NCBI GenBank assembly: GCA_026874595.1
Contig: CM049316.1
Coordinates: 29,185,339-29,249,338, forward strand
Direction of reading: 5' to 3'
DNA length: 64,000 nucleotides
Origin: Sipunculus nudus
Taxonomy: Eukaryota; Annelida; Sipuncula; Golfingiida; Sipunculidae
Shown: in pieces, positions 12,157-46,000 of the stretch
Numbering within the stretch: the stretch's first letter is position 1
Layout: each line of letters begins with the position of its first letter
The notes under the pieces: generated by a model
Told to the model about the DNA's origin: nothing
Database searches by the model: none
Seen by the model: the letters and a program-made list of their open reading frames with translations, nothing else
Made by a program: the position numbers and the translations under genes

Positions 12157-13449
<1,293 letters not shown>

Positions 13450-31020: not shown

Positions 31021-34000
31021 CTAAAATAAAAACCGAATATCTTTAGCTCATCTTACGGTGGTACCACTTGACTTTTGCCACATAGCTTCTCCGTCTTTCT
31101 TCTTGGAATGTTGAGAATGATGCCAAATGTGTCATAAGGGGGGACATTTCACATATTTTACCCGCGAATCACGAAAACGGGCTATTGCAGCGCCATCTAT
31201 CAGGAACTACATGAATTACGCCAGAACGGGTGTTGTCCTGGTACTTCCTTATTAGGGCTGCAGGGATACATAGGTGCACCGATACATTACATATACATGT
31301 ATAGTATCGACCGCGTCATATTTACTTGCATCTATACACAGAGAATGTTTAGTCATCAGAGGATCGAGAAATCACATTTAATAAATGGTTTCAAAACGCC
31401 GAAAATTCGTGTACGCCATTGGTCAGAAACGAGTCTACAATCATCTGCTTGAATAATTATTTGTAATGTAAAAGATGCTACCTATGGTTTTAAAAGTACT
31501 TCCATATAAACGAGAGGTCAGGAGGGAGGGTATAAGGAATTGGAAATTGAGAGGTCGGCCGGGATGGAATATGGGGTGGGGGGGGGGGGGGGGGGGGTGA
31601 CGGCAGTTCAGGAGTTAGATTATTAAGAGTTGGAGGGCGAGAGATGGCTTGGGACGCTATTGGGGGTGTAGTATAGTGACCAGAGGTTAGAAGGGAGGGT
31701 ATTAGGAACTGGATGGTTATAGGTCGACCGAGACGGTATTGGTTGGAGGGTGGGGGGGGGTCGACGTGAGGTCAGGAGGGTGGGTATTAGATATTAGAGG
31801 GGGCTAGAATTCGACAGGAACGGTTTTGGGATGGGAGGGGTGACGAGAGGTCAGGAGGAAGTATATTAGGAACTGGAGGTCGGCCTGGACGGTATTTGGT
31901 TCGGGGTGGGTGGGTGGGGGGGGGGGGGTAGGTCACCTGGGAGGGTATTCGGATTTCGAGGGTTAGTGGTCGGCCGGGATGGTACTGGGGCCGGGGGCGT
32001 GGGGGGGGGGGGGGGGAGGGGCTGACGAGTGGTCTGGAGAGGTTATTAGGAATTGAGAGGGGGGGTGTAGAGGTAGGGCGGAACGGTATTAGGGCGGGGA
32101 TGCCGAGTGGTCAGGAGGGAGGGTATTAGGATTTGGAGGATGAGAGGTCGGACGGGATGCTATGGCGGGGGGGGGGGGGGGGAGGGAGGGGGGTGACGAG
32201 AGGTCAGGAGGGAGGATATTCGGATCGGGGTGTGAGAGGTCGGCAAGGACGGTTTTGGATGGGGATGACGAAAGGTGAGGAAGAAATTGGGATGAGGAAG
32301 GCAACAAGTAGGGAGGGAGGGAAAGGGGATGGGAAGGGAGATTATTTGTCTTGGGAGGAAGAAAGGTTTAGGTCGGTATATGGAGATGAATGAGTGGCGT
32401 AATTTTGGATAAGAAGGATGACAGGTCGGCAAGGGACGGTACGCCTATACGGAGGTAGATGACGAGAGGGATCGGGCAGGGACGGTATTTGATGGAGAAG
32501 GTCACGGGTTTATTAAAGGTCACTTACAAAGTACAAGAGAAGCCGGGCCAACCGTGTATTGAGTATTCCAGGGCTGACTTGCGATGGCGCCGGCTGCTGC
32601 CTCACCTGCGGCTATCTGCATATACAAAATCAATCACATGAAAAAGTTACATGATAAACAATAACATAAAAAATGAAATGTATATGCGTAAGCTAATGAA
32701 ATGACCATATGTTTTCTTATTCAAGAACAAAATAAAAACAAATGGACGATTTTGGTTATATGTTTTGGCAGACAGTGCCATAAAGATGCAGTTGTTAATG
32801 TCAATTGCATGTACAACATACTTTCTTTGAGTAGAGCCACACGTGATGGCTGGTAGAGTTAATTAGTCAGCTTTTGTTGAGACATCTTAGTTTTTACAGC
32901 ACATGATAAACGACTTCTGCAAGAATTGGAATTAATAAAAAAGAACATTTTTTTAACGGTATGTGAAACATTACACTATACAATATGATGTAAAATATAT
33001 CACAATACATCAGTATTTTGTAATAGTGAGATATATGAAACAAATGGAATATTATATCAATATTTGTCATTATAATTTTAATAAAGTGAATATTTTTTTT
33101 TCAGTTTAACTGTCATTATCCTCATCATTCTTTATTAAATATTTCACATCATATTATTATATAAGTATAGCTTAAGAAAGAAGACGAAAAATATAATGCT
33201 TACTCAAAATTAGCAAGGTTTACCATATTAGAATACATAAATGTTATTTATAATTATCTATTTTAAGTAAATGACTTTTCTTATACAATTCAACATTACA
33301 GTCAATCTGTCAAATAATTTGACTGACTTTTCAGTCAATTTGAAAAATGCCTGAAAATTTTAGTCATTTTGTAAAATACCTGAGTGAATCAGGCAATTCG
33401 TAAATTGACTGAAAATTTCAGGCAATTTACAAATTGACTGATTTTACACATTGACTGTGACATATACTCAAGTCAAATGTGATACGCCCTCTGGTGGATG
33501 ATTGATGATATGCTAGAACAGCTTCGCCTGAGCTGAGGCTGATGGCTTCATGCCTGGAGTGTGTGTGTCTGAGGATGGGTGTTATTTCGTTGGGAACGGG
33601 ATCACAGGTAGAAGGGAGGGGATTCATAGCATATGTTAACTTTATATCTGCCTTCGCCAGGATTGTATGCGTGCGTGTGTGCGTTTGTGTATTTATGTGT
33701 TTGTTCAAACGTTATAAAAATGCTTATTTGCAATAGAATATTTAGTTCTTTCTTAAACCAGTATTTTTACCATTATATTTGTGGCTGCTCAAGTCAAATT
33801 ATGAGCCTGATGACGGTTCAGTTTTGCATTAGATTTTAGGTTTGCATCAGATCATAAGGTTTTGCCTTTCGAATAATTTCATTAAAAATTTATATTAGTA
33901 TTAAAAACTCCAGTCGAAAATGTACTACACCAGGACCAGGCACCTTGGTATTATACCATTATGGACGGTGATGGCTGCAAAATGTCAAAATGAATAAAAT

Positions 34001-37000
34001 TTAGATTGCATTCGTGCAAATTCTTATATACAATAATCTCTTTTCAGAATAAACAAATGCTTTTATTAAATGCAGTATTATAAATTATAATCAAACTTCA
34101 ACGGTGAAAAATGGCAGTGAAAATCAAGACAATGATGTATTAATAATTGAGAAGTTTGGGCTTTTGTGTCAATTTTAATTGTTCCAATTGCAGAGAAATA
34201 TCAAACATGCAGTTCTAATGAGCTGATCATCCGATTCCGTGCACATTCTGCGTACTGACTGGTACATACGTATACATTAGGTATATTAATTTAATTTAAA
34301 GGATAAGAATTATGAATTTTGTTCAACTGCCTTGAAAATCCAGAAGAATCTGAATTTTGAAAGTTGTTATCTCGTAGAATATTAATCAGGGTGACCTTGT
34401 TGTACAAGAGCTTTCTAGGTCTTATGGTCAAGATTTGTGCCCTGCTAACGGCCGGGCGGAAGGTTCCGTTCGCAAGTGAGCTAAGCTATGAAATCGGGTC
34501 CCTTGGCCCCGTTGGGGCGGGCTGCGGGCTCTGCAGCCAACGGGGCGTTTTGGGATCCTCTCACTCTGATGAGCCCGTGTGCACCATCAGCTTGTGCTCA
34601 CGTCCTTGAAGGTTAGGTAAACGTAACAGCACGTGGCGATGTTTTATGCATGTAAGATTTCATCCAGAACAGAGACCGGGTCCTTATGTGATTGGCTGGT
34701 GCAAAGTTTGACGTCACAGGCAGAATTTAGAAATGACCTAAATCTAGCAATACATATTGTTTACATTCTTCCCTGAAAATTTCGGGCTGACAGTATCAAC
34801 AATACTAAGCGTGTGATGACATCTAGAAATTTCAGTCACATGGGTTTTCCCTGTGTGTGACGGCACTGCTGAGTTGACAGTGCTCATAGATCTGCCAATA
34901 GTTTTTTTAATAAATCACACAACCTTATGTTTTTTTTTTGTGGAATAATAAATAGAAAAAAATTTTTTTCCTTCAAGAATTGGGTTAAACCTTTATTAAT
35001 ATTTTTTCATAGGTAATTGTGTTAAATGATTATATAATGAGATCCGGAGTACGTTTGCTTGATCTTTAGCACATGCCTGCCCATAGCGACGTCTTGTGGA
35101 ACGTTTTGTAACTATAAGAGCTGGGCGTGGGTAAGCCTAATTTGAGTGCAATATATAATATGTATTTCAGTACGCTTAAAGCAATACCCGAATGATGATA
35201 CGCTATTTATTACTTTTTGTGTGATTTTCTTATAAAAAGCATTTTGGGTGAAGGTTTTTAATATTGTTCAACCGAACCACCCCCTCCCCCCCCCCCCCCC
35301 CACTCCCCTACGCTAAAAATTGGTAAATTTCTACCGAAAAATCAAATAAGAATGTTTGATTCTCGGGGTGGGTCTGGGCGAGGTGAGCCGAAATTTACGC
35401 GCGCAGTGCATGAGAAACAAACCTTTTCTGGCCTAAGCACTCACCAGTTCAGATTCGTTGGGTGGTCCGTCAAAAGAGTAGCCATACGGAGTCAGGAAGT
35501 ACTGACCGTAGCTGTGAGTGGTGATAAAAGCGTCAAGGGTCATCCCTTCTCCGGCCAGAGTGGTCAAAACGTAGTTCCTCACAGCCAGGGCCTCGGGTTC
35601 ACTGTACGGCTCCGGTCCCGCGAACGTGTTACTGCAAGGATCGCTGCTGGCACCAATAGCTGAAAGTTAGTAAGAAGGTAGAAAATAGCATGCCAACATA
35701 GATTTCACTCATTGGAAGGCGACAAAAATTTAATATTAAAAAAGGAAGAGTCCATGCGTAATGTTCAGCTGTTGGGTTCGAGTCGAATAATACTGAAATG
35801 CGGTTTATTCACCAGAAACATTTTTAGGCTCCCCAAGGCCCTCCCTTCTGAGATATAAAAATGTATCATTCTATCTTTGAGATGTTAGAAACCCAGTAGC
35901 AGTCGTCACCGGGAGAAGTCTCTTCAATTAGATTGGTACGTTCTGGTAAAATGTATCTAGGGCATACTTATTTTTACTTACTCATCCACTGGAAATCGAA
36001 GTTTCTGTTGGCGTCCGTTCCTATACATCCAGTGATGTCATCCACTCGGTTGTTTCTGGTTTTACGCCACATGCGGTCCTGTGGAAATATCACAAACGAA
36101 ATATGAAATATGATACATGGTTATTTATTGAGCGCGATAATTTGTTACCGGAACGGTTCTTAGTATGTGTAAAATAAAGTTCTAACCTAGATAGAACGGG
36201 TATGGAGGGATGGATGCCAGCTGCTATCAATGCGGTGAGTGTGGGATAAAATCCCCTTTTACTGCGATTTTGTTGGCTACAGTACATGAAAGTTTGGCTA
36301 AATATCTGAAAATGGAAACCTTTGTTTCTTAAATCACTGTAAATTCTTGTTTACTCGCACTATTCATTTTGATTGAAGAGCCTTTTTTTCAATTATAACC
36401 CGGGCTCTATGCGAGCTTTATCCTGCCTTGATTCGTAAACCAAGTTTAAATGATCATAATTGTCTTTCGGCAATGAAGTAGGCTGGGGCGTTGTGTCAGA
36501 TGCCTATGATCAGACGTATGTTTATGAATACCCGGTACCATAAACAAAGATAATCAAAAAGGTTTACACTTCTTAAAAGTTTCTGAAACTTCAGGAAAGC
36601 TATATACTAATATATTGTGTGATTGTAAGCAACGATTTATTAACCGTTTTGTAAATTACTGTACAACAAACAAAGACAAAAATGGCTTTACAGTGTTTTT
36701 TTCTATATTTCCTTTAAATACTTCAACACTTTTACAATATGGTATTTGTATCGGCCATGCGGGGATGTAGTCACGGCGCCATGTGGTGACAGGGGAGTAA
36801 TGCTTTTAACTTCAGTTTCGCTCGTTATGAGTTGAAATACAGTTGCGTCAGTGTGATTCTTAAAATATTTGTGTTTGATGTGATTTAGACCATATACGCT
36901 TTGATTGCTATTTAATTAATCCGATTATTACACAAATTAGAGGCTGCAATTGTTGCATATCAGGATGGCTGGTAGATGGAATAACTTACGTAGATCCGTG

Positions 37001-40000
37001 AATAAAATTAATGACCATGTGTCTGTAACTTTGCAGTTATCATTATATCATTATACCAGGAATTTTATTGATGCGATCATTGACAGTTTTGTGTGTATAA
37101 TGAGGTCACTTACATATGCATTGAGTGGTCACCTACAAATGTATGTGTGTGTGTGTGTGTGATGCGGTTTCCTGCAGTTTTGCGTGTGCGTTGTTGTGAT
37201 GCGGGTACTTACAGCTGGGTGTACGATGCGGTCACTTACAGTTGTGCGTGTGTGTGTGATGCGGTCACTTAAAGATGCGTGAGACATGTTGTCACAGTTG
37301 TATGTGTGTGTGTGTGATGCGGTCACCCTAAGTTCTGTTGTGTGTGTAATGCGGTCACTTACAGTTGTGTGTGTATGTGACGTGGTCACAGTTGTGTGTT
37401 CGATGCCGTCACTTACAACTTTGTGTGTGATGCGGTCATTAACGACTGTGTTTGTGATGTAGACATAGTTACATTACTTGTGTATGATGCGGTCATTAAC
37501 AGTTTTGCGATTTAAACTTACCGTTGTGTTGTGTGATGCAGTCATTTACAGTTTTATGGTTTACTCTTACCGTTATGTTTGTGTGATGCCGTTATTTACA
37601 GTTGTTTGTGCAATGCGGTCACTTACAGTTGTGTGTGTGAGATGCGGTCACTTACAGTATTGCGGTTTAATCTTGGCATTGTGTGGAGTGATGCGGTTGA
37701 CACTTACCGTTGTGTGAGTGTACACGTATCCATCGGCGTTCATAACGGGGAAGAAATAGAAATCCCATCTGTTCAGCATCTGAGTGGCCACGGAATCAGA
37801 GCCATAGTCGTTTGTGATCTGTGTAATGTACAAGACACAAGCCCAGCTGAAGTATTTTTATTTATTTCGGTAATCCTTTTTTTGATACAAATTTTTCTCA
37901 CGTCTTACGTTTATGGGGCCGTACAAGATATATGCAATATGGTCTAAAAATGTTATTGTCTGTGTGACACATTTCAGATATATTACAAAAAGTGTAAGGT
38001 TTTGAAAAATAAGGTTTTATGTTTCCAGTATTAGTTAATTGTTAACCAGGTTTAGATGTATACTATTTATGATAAACTCAGGGAGGATGATTACATTGAA
38101 CATCATGCACACGTTGCGTAAAAAGGGGGGGGGGATATATACCCCCATCTCCCCTATATTGACGCCCCTGTAAAACACTGTGGTATGGAACTGGACAAGA
38201 CCCTCAAAATCAAGCTTTAGCTTTAGAACATACGCACGGTAACCGTATATGTCACAGTATTTGCTGTAACTGAAAATGCCAAGGACTTTTAGTCATTTAA
38301 GTCCGCATATTTTGGGAAGGACTTTTAGTCACTTGATTCAGTATATTTGCAAGGACTTTTCGTCACTTAAGTCAGTATTTTTTGCAAGGACTTTTAGTCA
38401 CTTAAGTCAGTTTATTTTTGCAAGGACTTTTAGTCACTTAAGTCAGCATATTTTTGCAAGGACTTCTTGTCACTTGAGTCAGCATATTTTAGCAAGTTAA
38501 ACCTAGTAGCCCTATACTTTTCAAATCAAGAATGTTATTCTAAATACGCCGTTTTACAGTTATTAAGTGATAAGGTCAGTAAGTGATAGGCGGATCCATT
38601 TTTTTCATTCCGAAATCCGATTACTGCATTCAGGGAGGAAAATGGTTGATTAAAAATACTGGGGTAAAAACACTTTGTCCGTATATGTTGCATACCGCTT
38701 TACCTCCTCCTCCCGTAACTGCATGACGCGTAACCGCAGCTTTATGGTATCTACGTATGCTGAGTTTATGTTTGTTCATCTAAAGCAGGCTTCTTTTTGG
38801 CGTATAACAATGGTGGAGTAAAATGTAACATTGAGTACTCGTTACCATGACTACAGTCTTCCATCGACATATAAATGTATCGTGCAAGCCTTAATTAGTT
38901 CTAGGCATTTTTTTTCCTTGACAGCGGTTAATTGACAAATTATATCTGATGACATGGTTTTAATGTTTATCAAAATAAGAAAAAAAATATAAAAAATACA
39001 AATAAATCACATTTGAATTAAGAAAGGAACAATCAACTCCGAATTGTCATAATCAGTATTTTAAATTTTCAAAACTACCGTTAAGACTCGAATGAATACG
39101 ATAAAATATATAATGGATTTACCCTGTCCAGCATAAACAGCACGGTGGCAGGTGAGATCCATTCACGGGCGTGGATTCCACCGTCAATCCAAAAACCTCT
39201 GGTCTTCCCGGCACCTGCTGACACCTGGAAGCAAAATACTAAACTATCATCAACCAAGATGAGATACATACATACCACAAAAAAAACATGTTTTCTGCAA
39301 AATTTTGTTGGACGCACTTTGGCTTTCACAAAGAATGACCGCTTTTCATGTTAGACATGGACAACGAATGCCCACCACTTTTCAAATCAGGGGCGTATTC
39401 AAGGGGGTCCGATGGGGCGCCACTTCCCCCTTTCTGACGGACAATGCTAATAAACTCAATTTACTACGATCAGTCAAGACTGATTTTTGTAAGCATACAT
39501 AAATTAAGTAGTTTTTTTTGTTTCTTTTTTTTCCGTAATGAATAAAATCAGTTGAGATGAATCTATTTGGTTCGTCCTTATCCTGAAAATTAAAAGAAAA
39601 CTTTCCACTTGACGTCATTTTTTAATCTTGAATTACGCATATTTTAAAGGCAACCTTATAAAACTTTGTGCTGTGGCTGAACAGCCAACTATTAATAAAT
39701 TTTTCTTTCACATCGTTGGAAGGGAGAAGTTCGTGTAATAACAAAGCAGTCCTCCGTAACCGAAGAAGATGCTGGAGGTGCAGGCCGGCTGGTCCTGACC
39801 AGACCGCTAACAAAATACCAAACTGCTCAGACCACCCTTTCTTAATTAATTTGCCTGTGCTATAGATGAATTTGTTATATTTGAAAAGTTTCAGCTGATA
39901 ATCTAATCCTTATTATGGGCAATGTGTTTGTGTTTTGAACTAGTTTCTAAAAAAATACTCCTTGACTAAAATAATTGTGTAGAAAAAATAGTTTTGAAAT

Positions 40001-43000: not shown

Positions 43001-46000
43001 CCATAATTTCGCCCGCATTTGGTATGACAGTTGTTAAGCTTTGTCCGCCCCTCACTGAAAAAAAACTTCAAAGTGATATAATCCCTAATGATTGGAAAAC
43101 TGCCAGCCAAGATCGTTCCTATATATAAAGGCTCTGGTACGAAGAGAGACCCAAATAATTATCGACCAATATCTGTCATTGGTCATATACCAAAGATATT
43201 GGAATCATTCGTCAAACATAATCTCTCAAATAGATCTGAGCATCTCGCACTGCACACAGTAACAGTTAAATGTTTAACAAACATGAACAACAATAGATTA
43301 CTGCAGCTTCCTACATGGACATAAGAAAAGGATTTAACAGCCTAAATCATTCAATTTTATTAGGCAAACTAAAACAATACGGCATCATTGATACTGAACC
43401 TATTTGGTTAAAAAATTATTTATCTAACAGGTGACAATTAGTATGTGTGAATGGAACTCTCTAAAGAGTGCGTTTTGAATAACGGGACCCCTCAAGGCAC
43501 AATTCTAGGTCCGGTTTTATTCCTTGTGTATATTAATGACTTGCCTAAATATTTAAAAGAGAAATGTATGATATATGCTGATGACATCTCAATATATAAT
43601 TCCTCAGATTCACCAACTCAGGCGACTAACCGCCTTCAGAAACTTATTGACATCGCTCTTAAGTGGTTACATAATCCCCGACTTTGCATAAACCCTGTAA
43701 AATGCACGGTAATTTTATTCGGCCAAAATAAAAAAAAAAAAAAAAACGATCTCCTTTTCTTGCTTGCAGCTTAATGTCATAAAACTTATTTCACACGTAG
43801 ATACAATTTTTAATTTCCCTCGCCATTGATAGCTCACTTCAAGAACAACGCACTTGTAACGCACTTGCTCTTTCACCTTACACTTTCTTTTGTATTTATC
43901 TTGCGGGAATTAGTCAATCATAGATGCCGTTCAGGTCTGTGAAGAATGGTGTTAATCTTGCAATGCCGTTAACGTGGCTAACCGACTAATTTAACTCATA
44001 GTCGCAGGTCGCAAAACTGATGATCAAGAATCGTAAACGTTTCATGTGAACAGAAAATTATTTTTCAAATTGAGTTTAAAAATATAAATACAGTAAAACC
44101 TCGAAAATAAGGCGACCAATGCGACTATTAAAGTGGTCGCATTTTCTAACTGGTCGTCTGATATGAAAAGCAAATAATAATTGGGACCATGAAAAGTTTT
44201 CGTTTTATTGAGGTGGTCGCGAAACTGAGGTGGTCGTTAGGGGACGACTGTACTCAAAGGATTCCATGACCTACCTCGGTATATGTCATATAACGATCAA
44301 AGGTGTAGCGGGAAACATCGTAGTCGGATTTAAGCCCAGCGAGGTGGTTCTTCATCAGCTGTTCATCTACCAATCTGAGAATAAAGTTAATCTCTATTTC
44401 ACTTATACATTGTGTGATCATATACAAATCTGAGAATAAAGTGTATTTCCAATATACCTATACAGCGTGGTCATTTACATGCCTGAGACTAAAGTGTATC
44501 TATAATATGTACTTATATTGCGTAGTTATCTATCGACAAGAGAATAAAGTATACCTTGAATGTGCATATTCATGGTAAATACGCTGTGTGGTCATACACG
44601 TACCAAAAATTAAGTATAACTCGAATTTACTTACATTGTCCGGTCATATTCAAACGTAAGGATTAAAAAAAGTCTCTACCTCATAAATATGGACTATCTG
44701 GTACCCTAGCATTTTTTTTACGAAACAAAACTGATATGTCCTTATGCCTTGATACTCATCAGTTTTCCTGTAGTATAGGCCATTGGTCGGTGGGTCCAAT
44801 GCCTGTTGTGTAAGTAACCATATTATGTGAGATTGTGTGATTCTTATGTTTTCGAAAGTTCTGTTTTTTTACTTACTTTACTATTACTACCAAAAAAAAT
44901 CATGAAAGTGAATTTAAAATAGTAGAACAAAACCCTGGGGCTCTGGTGATACATATTTTGCGTTGATACTGTTATTGGGTCAACTTGGTGATTTTCAGAA
45001 CCTAGTCTTATCCACTAAGGTAGGACGTATCATTCTCCTTCTATTGATTTAGCTACACATGTCAGTGTAAAACAGGGTCAAATTCAGTGACGGAGTCCCA
45101 TCCAAAATTTGAAGAATAATATTTCACGAGATTTTTCCATTAAACCTCAGAAGGGGTAAAATGTTAAACTCTCCATATTCCGACATTTAACAAAAAGACA
45201 ATAAGGCGTAATGGTGGACTAATAGAAACCGTCTGGGGAAGAACTAACCGCCTGAATAGCAGAGCTATCACAGAAATTGCAGGCAACTTCTCGCAAACCG
45301 TGGATTCAATAGAACTCTTACATTGGCTACAAGATTAAAACCCACAGCTTGGCATATACTGGTAATTGGAGAATCATTATTCCATTTTATTAATTGGCCG
45401 AACGTACCACAGCAAGTCCTCGCAGGTGTTCAAGGTTAAAAGGGTCACAGTCTGCAATTACCAGCGCATCCGGTGACACTCTCATTAACAGGATACTTCT
45501 ATTGTGTAGGATAAGCATAAAAAAAACTCGTATATTAAAAAGTATTCTGAATTTATAATTGCACTGAGCAATTTAGAAAATACGTGTACTATTATTTATT
45601 TTAATCAAATTTCAACCAATGTCTGTAATTTTTTTGTACCCCGCTTGGAAATCTGGAGAGGATAAAAAAGATAAGTGGTCCTATATATTAATTATCATGC
45701 CTATCATGTAAGGAAGCAAATAAAATCAACTAATATTCAAAGACCCCACACTCTGGCGTTCAAGCTAGATTGCAGGCGCGGATCCGGGGGGGGGGGGTCC
45801 ACCCCTTCTCAACCAACGACCTTTTTTTAGACATTTTTATTCATGACACCCGCTGACCCCTCCCTGCAAAAAAATCCTGGATTGTAAGAAGAAAAAATCT
45901 TAAATCCGATGTAACAAGAGTGTAAAGAAAAATGAAAGTATTAGGCCAAAAAATAAAAAGGTATGGTTCTCAGACACTTTTTTTTCAGAAATCACTGCCA

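Follow-up and report, generated by a model that had tools for sequence, protein, structure and literature searches.

Why should an intron carry, close behind its own splice donor, eight further exact copies of that donor, and what, if anything, do the copies do? The question is raised by a 64,000-nt stretch of contig CM049316.1 of Sipunculus nudus (assembly GCA_026874595.1), which we analyzed as a whole and call the window; coordinates refer to it, and features lie on its minus strand unless stated otherwise. The explanation that we regard as best as a whole, with a probability of roughly 0.7, is that a minisatellite was seeded by the exon-intron junction itself and that its copies are mostly silent.

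The gene concerned encodes an M14 carboxypeptidase. Ten exons were placed from 47591 down to 30833, and they form a single open frame of about 414 codons. The first placed exon has an uncertain 5' end and the start codon was not placed, which makes a further upstream exon likely. The encoded protein carries the propeptide (Pfam Propep_M14, E=2e-10) and the zinc carboxypeptidase domain (Peptidase_M14, E=1.5e-90), its closest solved relatives are procarboxypeptidases A2, A4, and A1, and the gene is an animal-type digestive carboxypeptidase. The exon that ends in the repeated donor had been labeled exon 7 in the initial annotation; it is the sixth of the ten placed, and with the likely upstream exon the number 7 may prove right.

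This exon (37708 to 37818, 111 nt) ends in NADGYVYTHTT, and its last 13 to 14 nt make up the exon part of the putative repeat seed. The next coding exon (35982 to 36078) starts with DRMWRKTR, and this start places the true donor at 37707. At the join (37708/36078), the protein aligns without gaps to carboxypeptidases A1, A2, and A4, and A1 reads DGFAFTHST/NRMWRKTR. Since the join lies within a stretch that aligns gap-free to all three solved enzymes, the donor GTAAGT at 37707 to 37702 is real, and since solved carboxypeptidases can be aligned with the domain region that the exon encodes, the protein dictates the exon's tail at least in part. The residues THTT at the exon end correspond to THST, SQTK, and TQTQ in A1, A2, and A4, where they are followed by NRMWRKTR or NRLWRKTR.

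The gene holds other repetitive sequence as well. Plus-strand frames at 43082 to 43771, in one of its introns, contain what appears by eye to be the remnant of a LINE-like reverse transcriptase (NNYRPISVIGHIPKILE, YADDISIY), and its last intron includes a long C-rich repetitive stretch with a proline-rich translation (31493 to 32390). Elsewhere in the window, a minus-strand exon at 12157 to 12594 encodes three MORN repeats; we take it to be very like the first exon of junctophilin.

A degenerate minisatellite downstream of the donor

From the donor, a degenerate minisatellite extends into the intron (37057 to 37707). Hand cutting divides it into 23 segments including the junction, with a median length of 28 nt and a commonest full unit of about GTAAGTGACCGCATCACACACACAACT. 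The initial annotation had already claimed an array here; the array is real, and by hand segmentation it reaches further than was proposed, to about 37057. The GTAAGT motifs that had been reported, the donor at 37707 to 37702 and eight exact downstream copies, are all present on the minus strand, within 37108 to 37707. The eight copies occupy 37108 to 37655, with first bases at 37655, 37626, 37521, 37416, 37362, 37239, 37212, and 37113. The series of copies is nevertheless not unbroken, as the first intronic copy (37677) lacks GT. Also borne out was an identity of 13 nt between the copy at 37516 and the true site, CTTACCGTTGTGT on the plus strand.

By eye, the units fall into two types (a slash marks the position of the splice boundary). 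A units, AACG/GTAAG..TAAACCGCAAAACT, resemble the junction and are confined to the first ~210 nt of the array; among them are AACG/GTAAGT at 37501 to 37521 and AACG/GTAAGA at 37550 to 37570. B units, ACT/GTAAGTGACCGCATCACACACACA, make up the bulk of the remainder. The intronic copy nearest the junction, CACTCCACACAATGCCAAGATTAAACCGCA (37661 to 37690), was delimited by hand segmentation and alignment, and its donor is destroyed. A profile built with the 22 intronic segments recovered in nhmmer the junction unit, which spans the exon-intron boundary (37689 to 37720, E=2e-4), and outside the array it found no match below E=1.8 in the 64-kb window. Within the window, then, nothing points to a dispersed satellite or a transposon-borne unit.

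The concentration of donor motifs exceeds that expected by chance. In a 606-nt span the array holds nine exact GTAAGT, against at most three in the richest 606-nt span when a single strand of the window was simulated 200 times under a first-order Markov model. Tandem Repeats Finder, proposed at the outset as a check, reports five overlapping rows with periods of 27, 29, 32, 49, and 58 and matches of 61 to 78%, a significant but degenerate repeat. A tenth GTAAGT of this intron, at 36984, lies outside the array.

GTAAGT is not the dominant word of the array. Six hexamers outnumber it, and the commonest, CACACA, occurs 28 times in 606 nt. We nevertheless reject a plain (TG)n/(CA)n microsatellite, the finding that the initial annotation had said would overturn its proposal, as the blocks GTAAGT, ACCGCA, and CCGCAT each recur 9 to 11 times in these 606 nt and do so in register.

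Predicted effects of the copies on splicing

Could the array act on splicing? In such a scenario, the GTAAGT copies would bind U1 and either compete with the donor, generating a fraction of extended, truncated transcripts as a poison-exon-like brake, or raise U1 occupancy on the transcript and suppress premature polyadenylation. We consider this unlikely, even though several observations speak for it. Intron 6 contains 10 GTAAGT, its own donor included, compared with 0 to 2 in each of the other eight introns, and it also contains three AATAAA. Predicted U1 pairing, calculated as duplex energies with the 5' end of U1, is -6.2 kcal/mol or better in 9 of the 22 copies, a level equal to that of the gene's weakest genuine donors (3/9 at -6.2). 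Moreover, human IFI6 employs downstream repeat units as donors (PMC4526556).

Against an active array, the best predicted pairing belongs to the true donor (37702 to 37707), whose -11.2 kcal/mol is the strongest value among the array sites examined; the strongest decoy, the A-type copy at 37521, reaches -9.3 and the second strongest, at 37570, -8.2. At position -1, the copies carry T in 17 cases, G in three, and C and A in one each, leaving 19 of the 22 without the G. If the exon were extended to any of 21 of the 22 copies, the frame would close at codon 236 to 238 of 414 (numbering begins with the first placed exon), and the single copy that would keep the frame open (37677) is the one without GT. 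From the reading frame, use of any GT-bearing copy would thus truncate the protein.

The donor motif also shows no special conservation. Across 16 B units, two of which were shifted by hand by 4 nt to keep register, GTAAGT is no better conserved than GACCGCATC (82% versus 89%, Fisher P=0.18); the seven of 23 segments that were omitted are the junction, junction-like, or badly broken. In the lack of any excess over the rest of the unit, we reject selection for the GTAAGT copies. The array is therefore most likely a by-product. Low-level decoy use of individual copies is possible from their sequences, and we infer that a large effect on splicing is absent.

Likeness of two arrays to their splice junctions

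Whether the array grew from the junction, as the initial annotation proposed, is a separate matter. The proposal is supported by an in-register likeness that continues for about 13 to 14 nt into the exon, and it stays unproven. The last 14 exon nucleotides have a mean identity to the 22 unit tails that no other of the 1233 coding 14-mers attains; beyond the array, 5 of 63322 positions on the minus strand do. Four array copies were compared singly with the exon tail in the same register over 14 nt. Those at 37626, 37362, and 37239 each match at 11/14 positions (1/1232 coding words each), and that at 37521 at 8/14 only (23/1232 coding words). Deeper in the exon the likeness fades, copy 37626 passing from 11/14 to 11/20. 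The nearest copy (37690 to 37661) agrees with the junction at 23 of 30 aligned positions and has CACTC in common with the exon, a word that also occurs in one distal array segment, at 37136. Likeness of the units declines weakly with distance from the junction (Spearman -0.36, P=0.10), and we set this gradient aside as support.

The main competing account of these matches, which we hold to be improbable, is that an unrelated CA-rich minisatellite expanded up to the exon edge, and that the likeness reflects convergence on CA-rich sequence or conversion of the exon tail towards the array. It draws on the prevalence of CACACA described above and on the CA-rich composition of the exon tail, by which part of the likeness between junction and array could be coincidence. 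When the local search is freed from the register, the donor array is matched equally well by 9 of 1232 coding 14-mers, which is unremarkable. Conversion of the exon by the array at the THTT codons is possible because these residues are not strictly conserved among the relatives. What speaks against an unrelated origin is that ACCGCAT and GTAAGT keep their register with the junction likeness across the boundary, and that the pattern recurs at an acceptor whose junction is itself free of CA bias.

This second array (44356 to 44501) has a period of about 55 nt and 2.7 copies in Tandem Repeats Finder, covers the first 19 nt of the exon at 44275 to 44374, whose start is 44374, and multiplies the acceptor ACTTTATTCTCAG/ATT. 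The acceptor and the first ~15 nt of this coding exon are copied upstream, with the first exon-like bases of the copies at 44429 and 44482. The acceptor array lies upstream of the donor array's exon in the gene, in a mirror arrangement. Its nearest copy matches at 13/13 positions on the intron side and 12/15 on the exon side. Among 1231 coding 15-mers only this exon start itself does as well as the latter, as do 5 of the 63616 remaining minus-strand positions. The agreement weakens when more of the exon is included: 13/20 (2/1226 coding, 64/63611 other), 16/25 (2/1221 and 24/63606), and 18/30 (1/1216 and 26/63601). A free local search is again less discriminating, with 92 of 1228 coding 18-mers scoring equally against the acceptor array. 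Use of either acceptor copy would end the protein early, at codon 89 or 91.

We also compared all 18 junctions with their introns, using 100 shuffles per junction and, for long introns, only the 1500 nt closest to the junction. Two junctions, donor 6 and acceptor 3, stand alone in having intronic copies beyond all shuffles (0/100 each), with scores of 35 against a shuffle mean of 19.4 and 41 against 18.2, respectively. The next best, donor 1, is reached by 1 of 100 shuffles.

The position of the arrays carries no such weight. The placement test used the gene's four array loci with a unit of at least 20 and at least 2.3 copies, hand-picked from the Tandem Repeats Finder rows. When these four long-unit arrays were placed at random in the gene, contact with junctions was not significant at tolerances of 0, 10, and 20 nt (P=0.58, 0.60, and 0.20), with 1, 1, and 2 contacts observed against random means of 0.76, 0.80, and 0.85; the donor array was entered as 37195 to 37697 and so counts as touching only at a tolerance of 20. 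Such unremarkable placement sits as well with an unrelated CA-rich array, and we do not accept array position as evidence on its own. The case for a junction origin rests on the register across the junction, not on where the array lies. The two further long-unit arrays in the gene, at 33315 to 33441 and 38280 to 38496, have no contact with placed junctions; the latter consists of six copies of a 36-nt unit with 85% matches, in the intron before the donor array's exon.

Another possibility, to which we give very little weight, is that hnRNP L or another CA-binding protein recognizes the CA-rich copies just past the donor, so that they enhance or silence splicing from within the intron independently of GTAAGT. 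CA repeats are bound by hnRNP L and can influence splicing, and CA runs are present in most array segments; a splicing role here is putative.

Proposed seeding by the junction and comparable systems

For a minisatellite seeded by the exon-intron junction, we propose the following course. A segment of about 30 to 35 nt, from ~13 nt inside the exon to ~17 to 20 nt into the intron, may have been duplicated in tandem beside the donor. The extra copies, intronic and free of coding constraint, would then have spread through further unequal duplication. A-type copies (AACG/GTAAG) would have remained near the exon, while most of the remaining copies would belong to a derived B type (ACT/GTAAGTGACCGCATC) that has lost 3 nt and carries T at -1. 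GTAAGT would have been copied as part of the seed, not through selection. The true donor most likely still wins, both as the sole site to combine a G at -1 with GTAAGTG and given that mis-splicing would yield truncated products. The acceptor in the same gene may have seeded the second, shorter array likewise.

Since this exon codes for a portion of the enzyme that can be aligned with solved relatives, copying from junction to array appears to be the simplest direction. One further match was considered and set aside. The first letters of the next exon, GACCGCAT (36078 to 36071), occur eight times in the array; this is probably chance, since the junction unit reads GTCAACCGCAT and GACC accompanies the loss of 3 nt in B units.

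Minisatellites that multiply a splice donor are already known, as in human IFI6, and the present array belongs to that kind: units of minisatellite size stand in tandem at an exon-intron junction, and the real donor is repeated in them, keeping its register relative to that junction. The repeat unit of IFI6 is shorter than the unit here. Variation in copy number between individuals is a feature of many minisatellites. For IFI6 (also 6-16 or G1P3), a minisatellite with multiple splice donor sites was reportedly described by Turri et al. in 1995 (Nucleic Acids Res 23:1854). According to a later paper (PMC4526556), two downstream repeat units serve as donors and three mRNAs are made. In both genes, then, a minisatellite supplies several donor sequences and the real site is repeated downstream, but the repeat-unit donors of IFI6 are used, whereas the copies described here are candidate donors whose use would truncate the protein.

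Other systems share single aspects of the arrangement. De Grassi and Ciccarelli (2009; PMC2812944) describe internal tandem repeats at exon-intron boundaries of human duplicated genes, with units of 30 bp on average; these likewise are minisatellite units at such boundaries, but they lead to new introns in paralogues, whereas the array described here lies inside an existing intron. In the fungal stwintrons of Lipomyces (PMC7138796), a duplicated intron donor provides a second donor within the intron, through duplications of 4 to 7 nt that give nested introns rather than a long array. In Drosophila, introns gained where proto-splice sites were duplicated in tandem (PMC2891723) offer a similar multiplication of splice motifs, but the new introns are born there from coding sequence. 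In polyubiquitin UBC, a tandem array likewise repeats a splice motif within one gene, in the form of dual-specific splice sites; these sites lie in coding monomers and are used (PMC10809524), unlike the intronic repeats and candidate sites of the present gene. Earthworm metallothionein introns carry repeats (PMC12783039), and we set them aside as a comparison. Full-text searches of open-licence papers turned up no acceptor-seeded array, which is no proof of absence, and no gene with both a donor and an acceptor array.

Judged by the gene and its repeats, this appears to be a case, of invertebrate type, in which an intron has grown through copies of its own splice junction; that a single gene should show this at a donor and at an acceptor may be less usual. 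A far broader claim, which we consider highly doubtful, would be that splice junctions, donors and acceptors alike, are preferred birthplaces of minisatellites in this genome, with introns growing outward and fossil sites tuning splicing as decoys. The gene lends itself, as a natural experiment, to the question of how a true donor prevails among many near-copies. If junction arrays were common genome-wide, they would provide a simple route to intron growth and to alternative splice sites.
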